Assembly (NCBI GenBank): GCA_017397695.1
Contig: JAFQIF010000215.1
Span: 1 to 16,804, forward strand
Origin: Clostridia bacterium
GTDB lineage: Bacteria > Bacillota_A > Clostridia > Christensenellales > Aristaeellaceae
DNA length: 16,804 nt
Direction: 5' to 3'
The translations under genes were made by a program, and so were the position numbers. Under the pieces are notes generated by a model. It ran no database searches. It was not told where the DNA came from and saw nothing but the letters and a program-made list of their open reading frames with translations. Shown here one piece after another: positions 9,089-12,969 of this stretch (the first letter of the stretch is position 1; each line of letters starts with the position of its first letter).

Positions 9089-9243
9089 GCGTGCATCCTC
9101 CGTATGATTCAGAATATGTTACAAATATACATCCTTATATAATTCTGTATCTTTTCCCTGTTTCCTGCCGGCTTGAAATCCGGAATCAAAATTAGCGCCC
9201 GATTTTGTCCCTGTTTCGCAGAAAGAACAAGGAATCTCCCCTC

Positions 9244-9326
9244 GGCTCTCGACTCGCCCCGGTCAGGGCGGCTCTGAGAGCCCACTGGGCCCTCATTCAC
9301 TTCCGCCCAGGTTCGATTCCCCTCAC
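9244..9326 (+). other. Structured GC-rich segment ending in a tmRNA/tRNA T-arm-like sequence
   Basis: A composite hairpin (GGCTCTC 9244-9250 with GAGAGCC 9276-9282, enclosing CGCCC 9255-9259 with GGGCG 9266-9270) is followed by a 6-bp stem (CTGGGC 9285-9290 with GCCCAG 9305-9310). Then comes GGTTCGATTCCCCTCAC (9310-9326). Those 17 nt are identical to the T-arm end of ssrA (11928-11912 on the minus strand). Here the T-loop lacks a matching 5' stem and no cloverleaf can be drawn, so this is not a working tRNA. It may be a decayed tRNA/tmRNA fragment or the trace of an attachment site. It lies in the 398-nt gene-free stretch upstream of the sortase. The rest of that stretch holds AT-rich sequence near 9120-9145 that could contain the sortase promoter, plus the repeats listed separately. 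Confidence 0.35.
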
Positions 9327-9361
9327 ACCTTAGTACCAAATCAAAAACTAATACAATTTCC

Positions 9362-9403
9362 GGCTATCGTTTTGCGATAACCCTTTCGTTTTGTAATGGG
9401 TGC
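9362..9403 (+). repeat. Left inverted repeat of the cassette
   Basis: It contains CTATCGTTTTG (9364-9374), CTTTCGTTTTG (9383-9393, a 19-nt step) and TGGGTGC (9397-9403). Aligned to the complement of 11636-11678, it matches at 37 of 43 columns with one gap. A further near-copy, CTTTCGTTTTT, lies inward at 9442-9452, and a second TGGGTGC at 9425-9431. The 8-bp stem GGCTATCG/CGATAACC around a TTTTG loop makes it a hairpin as well. Confidence 0.75.
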
Positions 9404-9410
9404 GTTTGGT

Positions 9411-9445
9411 GCAAAAATAGCTCAGTGGGTGCAACGCCGGACTTT
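9411..9445 (+). other. tRNA 5'-half-like fragment
   Basis: TAGCTCAGTGGGT (9418-9430) followed by GCAACGCCGGACT is what a tRNA D-arm and the start of its anticodon arm look like. The preceding GCAAAAA cannot be paired with a nearby acceptor strand. No anticodon loop, T-arm or CCA follows. It is a fragment at best, and chance resemblance is possible. Confidence 0.2.
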
Positions 9446-9486
9446 CGTTTTTTCTCATTGTTTGCGTACTTCCATGTTAGGATCTT

Positions 9487-10680
9487 TCAGTTTTTATCGC
9501 AATAGGCAACAGCGCCAATCATCATGAGTACAACACCCGAAAGAATCATGATCCACCTGAGTGGCATAATATCAGCCAAAGGGCCAAATAGGGCCATGCC
9601 AATTGGATAACAACTGGAATAGAGTGAACTCATCAGACCAAACACACGTCCCTGCATAGAATGATCTGAATTTGCCTGAAGCATGGTTGTAATGGTAGTT
9701 TGCACAGTAGTCAAAGCAATCCCATACAATAACATTAGGATGAGATACAATGCAAGATGATGGCTGATACCCATACCGATCGCCATTGCACCAAACACGC
9801 TCAAACCTACCGCTAATGTCAGTCTGCGATTTCTGAAACCTCCCCAAAGGCTCATAAGTAAACCACCCAGCATCATTCCGCCAAAGCCCACAAGCTCAAC
9901 CGCAGTCAAATACCAGTATGTGTCTCCAAATACACGGCTTACCAGCAAACCTGATAAGTATCCTGCCGGTACAGTGAAGAATACAAACGAACCGTAGATA
10001 ATCAGTGTTTTTCGAACGATCACATGGGAGTAAGCATAACGGAGGCCAACCCATACATCGGCTAAGACAGAAGATGCATTATGTGCTTCTTTCTGTTTGG
10101 GAAGATGTATAAGAGAGAATACGCCAATTCCGATAACGGCAGTGATTATATCAATCACCAATGTGGTGCGAAGTGTACTCATTGTCAGCACCACAGCTGC
10201 TGCCGCCGGAGTTCCAAACTGTACGACAGACTGCATTGTAGCGTTAATGCCGTTATAGCGCATGAGATGTTCTTCTGGAACAAGCTGCGGAATGACTGCA
10301 TTGACTGCCGGGTTTTGAATTCCAGCACCGACAGAGCGAATGATCGACATGAACAACAATGAGATAAGCAGTACAGGCTCTGCTGCAATGTGCGGCATCA
10401 TCATCATCATTGCTAATGTAACGGCAGCAATCAATGCATCCGCTCCAATAATGAGATGCTTTCTACTATAGCGGTCTGCCCAAACACCGCCAATGAAAGA
10501 AACAAAAAACTGCGGAAGATAAGAGCAAACTGAGAAAGCTGCTACCCATGCACCACTGTTTGTTTGCAAAGTCACATACCAAACAATTGCCATTTGAACA
10601 ATTTGAGAACCAAACAATGTAATGCATTGACTGGCAAAAAATAGAATTATTCGCTTTCTCCAATGTACATGCGTTTCCAT
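9487..10680 (-). CDS. MFS transporter, DHA3-like efflux family
   Basis: This is a 397-aa polytopic inner-membrane protein with roughly 11-12 hydrophobic segments. The MFS motif A is clear in the loop after the second segment: GGVWADRYSRK at 64-74. Overall length and the opening (FFASQCITLFGSQIVQMAIVW) fit the DHA3/MFS_3 group, which includes macrolide exporters and many drug exporters of unknown substrate, so proton-driven efflux is likely. The start ATG overlaps the stop codon of the AraC-GNAT gene (TAATG), so the two are translationally coupled. Codon use is AT-rich, unlike the flanking genes, which supports acquisition by transfer. The substrate is unknown; a resistance role is inference from family and partner. 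Confidence 0.88.
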   Translation of the reverse strand: METHVHWRKRIILFFASQCITLFGSQIVQMAIVWYVTLQTNSGAWVAAFSVCSYLPQFFVSFIGGVWADRYSRKHLIIGADALIAAVTLAMMMMMPHIAAEPVLLISLLFMSIIRSVGAGIQNPAVNAVIPQLVPEEHLMRYNGINATMQSVVQFGTPAAAAVVLTMSTLRTTLVIDIITAVIGIGVFSLIHLPKQKEAHNASSVLADVWVGLRYAYSHVIVRKTLIIYGSFVFFTVPAGYLSGLLVSRVFGDTYWYLTAVELVGFGGMMLGGLLMSLWGGFRNRRLTLAVGLSVFGAMAIGMGISHHLALYLILMLLYGIALTTVQTTITTMLQANSDHSMQGRVFGLMSSLYSSCYPIGMALFGPLADIMPLRWIMILSGVVLMMIGAVAYCDKN

Positions 10681-11528
10681 TATTCCTGTATATCCTCCAG
10701 ATGTTTTGGTGGGAGTACAAAGCGCTGCGTCGGATAACCGAATTCTATCAGCAATTCTCGTTCGGCAAAGCCAAGCTGTTTCAATGTGTCTCGGTGGCCC
10801 GTATCCGCTTTATCTCCCTCACGATAAGTGGTCATGCTGACTTCTCGTCCAGGCAAATATATTTCTACAAGAGCATCCAGAAATAGCCTTTGGATACCCT
10901 GCTTGCGATATTGAGGCTGTATACCTAAAAAATCAATGCAGCCGGACTGCTCTGAAAAAGTCATTGCGCCAATCAGAATGTTGTCATCCCTTAAGACAAG
11001 TGCCCGCTTTTCATTTATGCACTTTGTTATTGCATTCAAATAATCGACTTCATTCATGACCGGATATCCGTCGATCACCAATCGCATTAACTCCATCCAT
11101 GCAGTAAGATCAGTCTTTTCAGCAAAACAGATGTCATCCTTTGTAAATACTCTGTTTGCTATATTCCTATATAAAGAAAACCTTAATTGCAAAGGATAGA
11201 ATGTTCCATTGTCGCGGTATTCAGCGGGCGGAATTTTATACATGGACTTAAAAGCGACAGAAAATGCTTGTTGACTTTCATAGCCGCAGATAAACGCAAC
11301 TTCAATAATCGGTTTATCAGAAAAAACTAAAAGTTTTGCAGCTTCGGTCAATTGACGACGCTGCACATAGTCATGAATGGTCATTCCAACTGTGCTGGTA
11401 AACATCCGATGCAAGTGATATTTAGAGTAATGGACAGCTTCTGAAACTTTGTCCAGATCAATTTTTCCGTCAAGATGGTTTTCGATATACTCAATGACAG
11501 TTTCGATACTTACTACATTATCTTTCAC
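10680..11528 (-). CDS. AraC-type HTH regulator fused to a GNAT-like domain
   Basis: This is a 282-aa two-domain protein. Residues 8-106 are an AraC/XylS DNA-binding domain with both helix-turn-helix units (LDKVSEAVHYSKYHLHRMF and EVAFICGYESQQAFSVAFK). Residues about 130-270 resemble a GNAT acetyltransferase, with the acetyl-CoA region IDFLGIQPQYRKQGIQRLFL and the later DTLKQLGFAERE. In the pyrophosphate loop R208-K-Q-G-I-Q213, the last residue is Gln where Gly or Ala is usual, so catalysis is uncertain and the domain may only sense a ligand. The start is a GTG at 11528 with GGAGG 9 nt upstream. It is coupled to the MFS gene and probably controls it. Its 20-bp-spaced upstream motifs (11646-11696) could be its binding sites. 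Base composition marks it as foreign to the neighbourhood. Confidence 0.87.
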   Translation of the reverse strand: MKDNVVSIETVIEYIENHLDGKIDLDKVSEAVHYSKYHLHRMFTSTVGMTIHDYVQRRQLTEAAKLLVFSDKPIIEVAFICGYESQQAFSVAFKSMYKIPPAEYRDNGTFYPLQLRFSLYRNIANRVFTKDDICFAEKTDLTAWMELMRLVIDGYPVMNEVDYLNAITKCINEKRALVLRDDNILIGAMTFSEQSGCIDFLGIQPQYRKQGIQRLFLDALVEIYLPGREVSMTTYREGDKADTGHRDTLKQLGFAERELLIEFGYPTQRFVLPPKHLEDIQE

Positions 11529-11570
11529 GGATTGCTTCCTCCTTTCTACAGAGATATTCTAGCAAAACAC

Positions 11571-11684
11571 ATGATAGCTGTTTTCATAATTCTTGCTGTT
11601 GTATATATCATATTGGCCTTCATGTTATGCATAATGCACCCAAAGCAAAACGAAAGGGCTATCGACAAAACGAAAGCCCTATGA
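11571..11684 (+). CDS. Possible 37-aa single-span membrane peptide
   Basis: A short frame opens with a 21-residue hydrophobic helix (MIAVFIILAVVYIILAFMLC...) and ends in a charged tail (HPKQNERAIDKTKAL). Such a layout is common for small membrane peptides. There is no convincing ribosome binding site before the ATG. The tail is encoded by the repeat units of the cassette end, which argues for chance. It lies divergent to the AraC-GNAT gene in a 375-nt stretch without recognised protein genes. The rest of that stretch holds the right repeat, a hairpin, and the ssrA terminator. Confidence 0.2.
   Translation: MIAVFIILAVVYIILAFMLCIMHPKQNERAIDKTKAL
11636..11678 (-). repeat. Right inverted repeat of the cassette
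   Basis: This is the inverted partner of 9362-9403 (37 of 43 columns equal). In plus-strand order it has GCACCCA (11636-11642) facing the cargo, then repeat units running outward. Confidence 0.75.
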
Positions 11685-11696
11685 TCAAAACGAAAG
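11646..11696 (+). repeat. Three direct repeats CAAAACGAAAG at exact 20-bp steps
   Basis: Identical 11-mers lie at 11646-11656, 11666-11676 and 11686-11696. They are followed by the inverted near-copy CAATCGTTTTG at 11702-11712. The spacing is close to two helical turns, so a protein could bind all three on one face of the DNA. They lie about 120-170 nt upstream of the AraC-GNAT start. They could be recombinase/transposase sites at an element end, or operators for the regulator. Confidence 0.8.
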
Positions 11697-11714
11697 CTGA
11701 GCAATCGTTTTGTT

Positions 11715-11749
11715 ATGCACCCACCGGGAAAAGTGGGTGCATTTTCTCT
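11715..11749 (+). terminator. Terminator-like hairpin at the right edge of the cassette
   Basis: A perfect 10-bp stem, ATGCACCCAC (11715-11724) with GTGGGTGCAT (11733-11742), has an 8-nt loop and is followed by TTTCTCTATT. No clear gene precedes it on this strand except the doubtful small peptide. The stem uses the GCACCCA block of the repeats and may be part of the element end instead. Confidence 0.5.
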
Positions 11750-11859
11750 ATTCGGTTTTCATGGATATTGTTACCCTGGGAATGGCGGCGAAAGAAGCAC
11801 GCCTGTATTACTCATATTCCCGGGTGCATTTGCCATTTCGCATTAGGATTCTGCAAGAA

Positions 11860-11902
11860 CATAAAAAGGACTGAAACCTTATATCAAAGTTTCAGTCCTT
11901 TT
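11860..11902 (-). terminator. ssrA: Intrinsic terminator of ssrA
   Basis: A perfect 14-bp stem (11902-11889 with 11877-11864) around an 11-nt loop is followed by TTTTTATG on the minus strand. It starts 1 nt after the encoded CCA. It is intact, so the cassette did not enter the ssrA gene or its terminator. Confidence 0.92.
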
Positions 11903-11903
11903 A

Positions 11904-12252
11904 TGGTGGAGGTGAGGGGAATCGAACCCCTGTCCGAAAAAGCGACTGCCAAGCTTTCTCCGAGCGCAGTCTGCGTTTTAACATTCCCTCTCCCAGGCGC
12001 CCACAGACGGGCTCAAGGGTTCAGTAGCTTCATCATGTGGCCATGCTGCAAAGCTTAGGCATGGTCATGGCCCGCTAAATTGACGCCGGGAACCGGGACA
12101 GCGGGGATCCCGGGCCGACGCGCAGCCTAATTAGGCCGCGAGGCAATAATTGTTATTGTCAGTTAATTTTTAATTTCCCGGTTTTTACGTGTCCCGGGGA
12201 CACGGCTCGCTTACCTGACCGCCCACGATCCCGTCGAAACCAGTACACCCCC
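11904..12252 (-). ncRNA. ssrA: Transfer-messenger RNA (tmRNA)
   Basis: This 349-nt RNA frees stalled ribosomes by acting as tRNA-Ala and then as mRNA for a degradation tag. Its 5' end GGGGGTG pairs with CACCTCC before the discriminator A and the encoded CCA. GGTTTCGACGG near the 5' end and AGGGG-TTCGATT-CCCCT at the 3' end are the hallmark conserved blocks. The tag frame ends NNNYCLAA then TAA, at 12160-12131. I place the resume codon at GAC (12160-12158), giving Ala plus DNNNYCLAA; an in-frame TAA five codons before GAC limits other choices. The Cys four residues from the end is less usual than the common YALAA. A 6-bp hairpin (12253-12267) abuts the mature 5' end. Partner gene smpB lies 165 nt upstream on the same strand. 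A TTGACA at 12376-12371 is a possible -35 without a good -10. Confidence 0.96.
12131..12160 (-). other. ssrA: tmRNA proteolysis-tag reading frame
   Basis: The codons GAC AAT AAC AAT TAT TGC followed by CTC GCG GCC TAA encode DNNNYCLAA. The stop lies at the start of a pseudopalindromic helix (GCGGCCTAATTAGGCTGC), as expected for helix 5. The resume codon is inferred from the AACT context preceding GAC; the C-terminal residues are certain. Confidence 0.7.
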
Positions 12253-12417: not shown

Positions 12418-12891
12418 TCAGTCGAATTTGTTGTTGTTTCTCAGCGCGCGCTGCATCTCGCGCTTGGTGTCGCGCTCGGCAATGGAGTCGCGCTTGTCGT
12501 GCAGCTTCTTTCCCTTGCACACGCCCAGCTCCATTTTAAAGCGTCCATCCTTGAGGTAAACCTGCAGCGGAATGAGCGAATAGCCCATCTTGCTCGCCTC
12601 CTGCGCGAGGTGGCGAATCTGGCTCTTGTGTGCCAGCAGCTTCTTTTGCCGCAGCGGATCGGCATTGAAGATGTTGCCCTGCTCATACGGACTGATATGC
12701 ATGCCGCACACGAGCAATTCTCCGTCCTTCACGATCGCAAAGCTCTCCTTCAGGTTCATGCGTCCCTGACGCATGCTCTTGACCTCTGTGCCGTGAAGCT
12801 CCATGCCGCACTCCAGCCGTTCCTCGACGAAGTAATCGTGGAACGCTTTTTTGTTTTGAGCCATGGGCTTGATGCCCTTTGCGCGTGCCAT
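12418..12891 (-). CDS. smpB: SsrA-binding protein SmpB
   Basis: This 157-aa protein binds the tRNA-like domain of tmRNA and brings it to stalled ribosomes. Family blocks run in order: NKKAFHDYFVEERLECGMELHGTEVKSMRQG, then LKESFAIVKDGELLV, HISPYEQGNIFN, DPLRQKKLLAHKSQI, then the basic tail CKGKKLHDKRDSIAERD that enters the mRNA channel. Normal length is about 150-160 aa. The ATG at 12891 (MARAKG) has GGAGG 7 nt upstream. A later ATG at 12863 (MAQNKK) also resembles the common family start but lacks a clear site. It is placed between pepF (78 nt upstream) and ssrA (165 nt downstream), so RNA and protein partners are adjacent. Confidence 0.97.
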   Translation of the reverse strand: MARAKGIKPMAQNKKAFHDYFVEERLECGMELHGTEVKSMRQGRMNLKESFAIVKDGELLVCGMHISPYEQGNIFNADPLRQKKLLAHKSQIRHLAQEASKMGYSLIPLQVYLKDGRFKMELGVCKGKKLHDKRDSIAERDTKREMQRALRNNNKFD

Positions 12892-12969
12892 ACGATTCCC
12901 TCCCCGTTTTGCTGCTGGCACATAGTATAACACAAAATGGGGAGGGATTCAAGATGGCTCGTTTTCCGC

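Follow-up and report, generated by a model that had tools for sequence, protein, structure and literature searches.

A probable integrative cassette behind ssrA in an uncultured Clostridia lineage and its relatives at the CCA ends of tRNA genes

The 16,804-nucleotide stretch at positions 1 to 16,804 of contig JAFQIF010000215.1, the whole of which is termed the window here, comes from an uncultured Clostridia lineage and carries, behind the transfer-messenger RNA (tmRNA) gene ssrA, a pair of genes for an AraC-type regulator and a major facilitator superfamily (MFS) exporter. This pair is probably the cargo of a small non-autonomous integrative cassette that lies exactly after the CCA of the tmRNA and was mobilized in trans by a serine recombinase. 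Insertion of the cassette is well supported, and we infer the role of the recombinase, the crossover dinucleotide, and excision as a circle. The initial annotation of this DNA had suggested either a small passenger mobilized in trans or a decayed element; this proposal is supported, and both halves of it may hold for the window copy. The features discussed are located in Table 1.

The nearest relatives available for comparison are metagenome-assembled genomes (MAGs) from the ruminant hindgut. In two of these (L002 and L003), ssrA is followed by its own terminator and, within approximately 35–40 bp, by a segment equivalent to window positions 9231–9338. In the window, this segment sits on the far side of the gene pair and the native ssrA terminator is gone; therefore, approximately 2.56 kb has been inserted between ssrA and the segment. 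An empty site behind ssrA, anticipated in the initial annotation, is thus found uninterrupted in both relatives. The neighboring M3 peptidase is 91% identical in L001 and 89% identical in L002, and in L001, L006, and L009 the contig breaks off before the ssrA junction can be judged. Comparison with other copies sets the cassette boundaries at 9340/9341 and 11903/11904, the latter adjoining the last base of the tmRNA CCA. The enclosed DNA is, as had been observed earlier, lower in GC content (0.42) than either flank (0.575 and 0.591).

The inverted repeat that was originally seen to bracket the gene pair is real, with 39 of 46 columns equal, one gap, and a local score of 55 compared with a best score of 30 among 2000 dinucleotide-shuffled pairs. 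It is not the terminus of the element as first proposed, since the true ends lie beyond it. The repeat arms contain short iterated units: CAAAACGAAAG, with one mismatch at most, occurs six times in the window against an expected 0.27, a count reached in none of 200 shuffles. These units and GGGTGCA units are subterminal in cassettes with ends of the window type and are present again in other copies; neither was found next to the tRNA-abutting ends of three recombinase-bearing loci (L163–L165). Parts of the arrays fold, by eye, as terminator-like hairpins on either side of the cargo. We read the units as predicted sites for an accessory factor and as possible insulation of the cargo. AraC operator arrays were considered as an explanation and set aside, given that one of the arrays follows the MFS gene and that unrelated cargo is accompanied by them as well. 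Short repeat matches at three further loci (L049, L050, and L058) proved on reading to lie within coding sequence and were dropped.

Table 1. Location of the cassette, its parts, and flanking features (window coordinates)
Feature	Position	Strand	Basis
Whole inserted cassette, 2,563 bp	9341..11903	no strand	Similarity limits against other copies; uninterrupted site in L002 and L003
Left end, outermost bases eroded	9341..9455		Matches in other copies start at 9341; alignment of 13 left ends
Right end, abutting tmRNA CCA	11634..11903	no strand	76–85% identical stretches in other genomes
Terminal hairpin, predicted replacement ssrA terminator and altered recombination half-site	11864..11902		Inverted repeat; arms covary family-wide; present in other copies
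Left arm of inverted repeat	9362..9406	+	Local alignment against shuffles
Right arm of inverted repeat	11633..11678	-	Local alignment against shuffles
Two CAAAACGAAAG units, one with a mismatch	9364..9393	-	Unit count against shuffles
Three CAAAACGAAAG units, 20-bp period (11646, 11666, 11686)	11646..11696	+	Unit count against shuffles
MFS exporter, cargo	9487..10680	-	Pfam MFS_1 6.5e-29; under NCBIfam cut-offs
AraC-type regulator with GNAT-like C-terminal part, cargo	10680..11528	-	Pfam HTH_18 1.5e-22; PF00583 in several close homologues
ssrA (tmRNA), insertion target	11904..12252	-	ARAGORN; Rfam RF00023 4.1e-73
smpB, flanking gene	12418..12933	-	Pfam SmpB 1.6e-58
Structured tRNA-end mimic, beside ssrA in L002 and L003, on far side of cassette in window	9231..9338	-	

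The ends of the cassette recur around other genes. A search with the inserted DNA across 300 family genomes gave matches in 37, of which 24 involved one or both ends (two 39-nt matches being left out of this count), and 20 regions were fetched; the initial expectation of the same ends around other cargo was thereby borne out. Matches to the left end begin at 9341, and those to the right end extend to 11905, taking in the hairpin that resembles the ssrA terminator. With the window included, 18 right ends could be compared, two of which (L128 and L129) match only in the last 61 and 43 nt. Thirteen of the 18 end on the CCA of a called gene for tRNA (Ala, Leu, Ser, or Pro) or tmRNA, three at a structured mimic of a tRNA end, and two at the left end of another cassette. 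Neither the inclusion of a terminator-like hairpin in the right end nor the use of the CCA of many tRNA genes as target had been foreseen. A terminator-like hairpin also precedes 12 of 13 left ends by eye, the window being the exception; we take it to be the original terminator, now displaced, or, in L121, the end of a neighbor. Copies range from approximately 0.8 kb (L129) to possibly 26 kb (G211), and stand in tandem in L114 and L121; the spans in G274 (11.4 kb) and G211 have matching ends and may each contain more than one event. Cargos include a macrodomain protein, MFS with AraC proteins, BspA-type repeats, a SacI-type endonuclease with a cytosine methylase, an HsdR N-terminus, and a methylase accompanied by an AAA-type protein, the latter classed by PADLOC as a type II restriction enzyme. 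Searches of phage and plasmid collections with the right end gave no match at E 0.01, and an exact left-end pattern had none in viral contigs.

Two copies, at a tmRNA gene in G093 (L117) and a tRNA-Ser gene in G285 (L121), share 98.4% identity across 1,723 bp, in a match that starts 3 bp before the predicted left boundary and extends 28 bp into the target gene. Such copies at two targets refute, for the family, the possibility that nothing here is mobile and that conserved tRNA terminators or intergenic repeats simply enclose vertically inherited genes. The right-end hairpin is indeed terminator-like, as are the hairpins flanking the cargo. However, the same ends lie at different tRNAs with different genes, the window cassette is of lower GC content, and its site is uninterrupted in two relatives; overall, this explanation is extremely improbable. 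Nor are the pair and its flanks syntenic in all relatives, or the repeats single gene-end hairpins, either of which would have counted against the initial annotation.

The left flanks of 13 copies share only 2–3 bp with the target. An ordinary tRNA island, formed by a tyrosine integrase and delimited by a direct repeat of the tRNA 3ʹ end, is very unlikely on this account, even though ssrA is a classic target in the Islander report (PMC4383910) and a 17-bp copy of the tmRNA 3ʹ end occurs at 9310–9326. Its inverted orientation and its place within the mimic led to the rejection of that copy as an attachment repeat, and no integrase was found among the scanned window proteins. A DDE transposon or a unit resembling a miniature inverted-repeat transposable element, with internal inverted repeats and a transposase supplied in trans, would fit the presence of inverted repeats without an enzyme gene, yet the repeats are not terminal, the target is fixed at CCA, no target duplication exceeds the 2–3 bp in common, and insertion at unrelated sites or duplication was not seen among the 18 right ends. 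We give such a transposon very little credence.

Reading inward from CCA, the right ends have A-C at positions 8–9 and ATACAA at positions 20–25 in common. In 9 of 13 left ends of the window type, the same half-site stands inverted at equal spacing, and, taken together, the two ends therefore resemble the half-sites of a serine-integrase attP. The pattern CCA-N7-AC-N8-TGATACAA matched 129 times in 83 of the 300 family genomes, compared with five matches for a reversed control pattern. Eighty-five of the 129 matches end exactly at a tRNA or tmRNA called by ARAGORN, representing 15 kinds (one "Pyl" call may be spurious). The others comprise 12 after the left end of a neighbor, 12 at a tRNA-like 3ʹ end (5 by script and 7 by eye), 3 after a mimic, and 17 that show none of these by eye and may be chance matches. 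Furthermore, the arms of the terminal hairpin covary: with the correct register, 76.9% of cells are paired, compared with 33–47% in eight slid registers and a mean of 56% (at most 60% in 200 trials) when arms are shuffled among the 68 distinct sequences. Across the class, the half-site was found in 58 of 291 genomes (73 matches versus 9 for the control), and 13 of 29 loci examined end at a called tRNA or tmRNA. Pairing at 10 or more of 11 positions in the register of the family is seen in only 4 of those 13, and the motif is therefore less uniform outside the family.

No recombinase was found among 8 scanned window proteins, the other main open reading frames being assessed by eye only, in keeping with the lack of a transposase noted at the outset. 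The candidate enzyme, a serine recombinase rather than a transposase, is encoded elsewhere. The right ends of L115 and L119 are like that of the window (85% and 84% identity) and adjoin a protein of 338 or 333 amino acids with Resolvase and Recombinase domains. The recombinase-coding element with the same ends that had been envisaged is thus matched at its right end; its left end is different in L115 and off the contig in L119. Y24, R26, S28, R98, and R101 are invariant in 40 aligned recombinases, 29 of which were drawn from 120 of 1525 database relatives among the matches listed; S28 is presumably the catalytic serine. A structural model (pLDDT 79, pTM 0.54) matches serine integrases, the SPbeta enzyme first. 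When three of these short proteins were aligned with three long ones, the short proteins stopped where the zinc ribbon of the long ones begins; the zinc ribbon and coiled coil of large serine recombinases are thus features that they do not have. Among 14 short relatives examined (frames up to 396 amino acids, E up to 1e-55), 10 have the half-site 3ʹ of the recombinase gene, 8 of these at a called tRNA, and five recombinase-bearing copies stand in tandem arrays. The best plasmid match, from Peptoclostridium acidaminophilum, is 43% identical and annotated only in part (501 bp), and phage relatives are at 43% or less. A repeat like GAGTAGNCTAAA was also observed near the start of the recombinase gene in L163, L164, L165, L185, and L115, and near its end in L163–L165; it might be an internal recombination or control site.

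Several observations weigh against assigning mobilization to this short recombinase, or limit the reading as a whole. The protein was found in only 7 of 300 genomes at E below 1e-60 and at 7 of 105 sites (in one case as a fragment of 103 residues), the site count covering at most 6 kb each and many contigs ending sooner. Because the recombinase is rare, most cassettes look like passengers. No half-site lies beside 4 of the 14 short recombinases, namely L161 (with one internal stop), L162 and L189 (at contig edges), and L190 (396 amino acids). The left ends of five readable recombinase-bearing copies are unlike the passenger type, with ATACAA 5–6 bp farther from the core in four and absent in L115. 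In the window copy itself, the half-sites at both ends deviate from the common pattern and fail its strict form. The genomes are MAGs with many short contigs, and empty-site comparisons elsewhere were of little help: for G093, the neighboring gene was found in 9 of 17 genus genomes including G093, and only one of the other eight had a tmRNA in the fetched stretch, with other sequence between; for G211, 2 of 18 genomes matched, one being G211 itself. Lastly, excision, the circle, and the activity of the enzyme are predictions.

It is conceivable, though rather unlikely, that the cassette family is real but depends for its movement on a different enzyme, for instance the full-length serine recombinase of a conjugative element or phage, and that the short recombinase is no more than frequent cargo. 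Half-sites in 83 genomes against a short recombinase in 7, the missing zinc ribbon, and the differing left end of recombinase-bearing copies favor this possibility, and long serine recombinases are common (72 of 300 genomes have a relative at E up to 1e-40). Against it stand the 10 short recombinases beside a half-site, and the three long relatives examined, for which no tRNA was found in the fetched region.

The sequences show the ends, the target, several cargos, horizontal spread, and tandem arrays of the family. In the mechanism that we propose, a cassette would insert directly after CCA, displacing or replacing the terminator of the tRNA or tmRNA gene, and the hairpin of its right end would serve both as the new terminator and as one recombination half-site. 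The CCA ends of many tRNA genes are used by the family. Integration would most likely occur in trans through a serine recombinase, with a crossover of approximately 2 bp at CCA, and the best candidate enzyme is the short recombinase lacking a zinc ribbon, the gene for which is present in some of the cassettes that have this right end. A still broader proposal is put forward tentatively, with slightly less than even confidence: a serine-recombinase system for which the CCA of nearly every tRNA or tmRNA can serve as attachment site, with an enzyme that functions in the absence of a zinc ribbon and an end combining half-site, covarying hairpin, and replacement terminator, would let cassettes accumulate harmlessly behind many tRNA genes and transport exporters, restriction systems, and other passengers through a bacterial class. 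The window cassette is probably immobile now because both its half-sites are altered; intact relatives exist.

The gene pair had been described as AraC-GNAT/MFS. The AraC and MFS assignments hold, the regulator matching Pfam HTH_18 and HTH_AraC; no GNAT model matched the regulator itself at E 0.001, and PF00583 was detected in several close homologues. The exporter resembles MefA/TIGR00900, yet falls under every NCBIfam cut-off. Proteins up to 99% identical to the regulator occur on other, short metagenome contigs. In a search of ten near genomes, a relative of the regulator extending past the common DNA-binding part was found only in G008 (43% over residues 12–274), and G005 has a 25% match to residues 104–271 with three stops. 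A relative of the exporter and regulator DNA (68% over 2.1 kb) lies on G135:C139 (L091 and L167), where neither a cassette end nor a tRNA was found in the fetched region; this cargo therefore seems to occur outside such cassettes too. The order of the M3 peptidase, smpB-ssrA, and a sortase/HAD/peptidoglycan-binding cluster varies between close relatives (window flanks, L003, L005, and L011), and the region behind ssrA is thus often rearranged.

The tRNA-end mimic is a unit of approximately 110 nt found behind tRNA genes, with copies in L002, L003, L114, L312, L315, L318, L328, L330, L333, L335, and L337. By eye, its 5ʹ arm is the reverse complement, and its 3ʹ arm a copy, of the 3ʹ end of the neighboring tRNA, with a common core between. 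With a threshold of E 1e-5, 11 of the 29 genomes searched in the genus contain it, in up to approximately 17 copies per genome; at E 0.01 the number is 15 of 29, four of these only through tRNA-like matches of 19–38 nt. In L315, L328, and L333 it is repeated in tandem every 138–163 bp. Folding z-scores lie between -4.1 and -6.2 for four copies; the window copy, which no Rfam match overlaps, has a value of -2.8. Cassettes have also inserted behind the CCA of the mimic, twice in G004 and once in G012.

A literature search by titles and abstract openings, with most subscription journals and bioRxiv preprints outside its coverage, returned no description of a tRNA-CCA cassette family, and the portion of PMC12884075 available holds nothing specific to these cassettes. 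A widespread mobile cassette family landing on the CCA ends of many tRNA genes is thus apparently undescribed. If correct, the proposed explanation would account for gene islands of a class that lacks integrases and make them recognizable by a simple sequence rule. It would also provide a compact recombinase with a target that no bacterium lacks, and show how termination at a tRNA can survive an insertion behind it. With half-sites in 83 of the 300 genomes searched in a single family, gene exchange in gut Clostridia may follow a route that has been overlooked.

Staphylococcal cassette chromosome (SCC) elements, which are also cassettes linked to serine recombinases, occupy the 3ʹ end of rlmH, a conserved gene; they occur in tandem, and some have no recombinase. 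The cassettes described here are alike in all of these respects, but differ in having the CCA of tRNA and tmRNA genes as target instead of rlmH and in having a recombinase without a zinc-ribbon part. CcrB is the top NCBIfam match of the four short recombinases tested, at 84–100 bits against a cut-off of 900, well below assignment to CcrA, CcrB, or CcrC. According to PMC3146451, the Dehalococcoides ssrA islands likewise stand in tandem behind ssrA, some with a serine recombinase and others, termed cis-mobilizable, without. Those islands insert in the T-loop with a 20-bp direct repeat and encode a 540-amino-acid CcrB-like DsiB and a 200-amino-acid DsiA, whereas here the right end abuts CCA, only 2–3 bp are in common, many tRNA genes are targets, and the recombinase has approximately 300–340 amino acids; DsiB and the recombinase here differ in length (540 versus 300–338 amino acids). 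Integrative and mobilizable elements with serine recombinases, such as Tn4451, have a two-bp crossover and very short direct repeats, as would the present cassettes; in PMC5704250, those elements are described as disrupting dispensable genes or inserting with low specificity, whereas here insertion is exact and the target tRNA stays whole. Tyrosine integrases are, according to the Islander report (PMC4383910), the enzymes to which islands at tRNA genes are usually attributed. Such islands share with these cassettes the choice of tRNA and tmRNA 3ʹ ends, but the cassettes are associated with a serine recombinase, and in 13 left flanks neither a displaced piece of tRNA nor a long direct repeat was seen at the far end. 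Since the defining features of ssrA islands and SCC are not found, the cassette family works like them without being a member of either.

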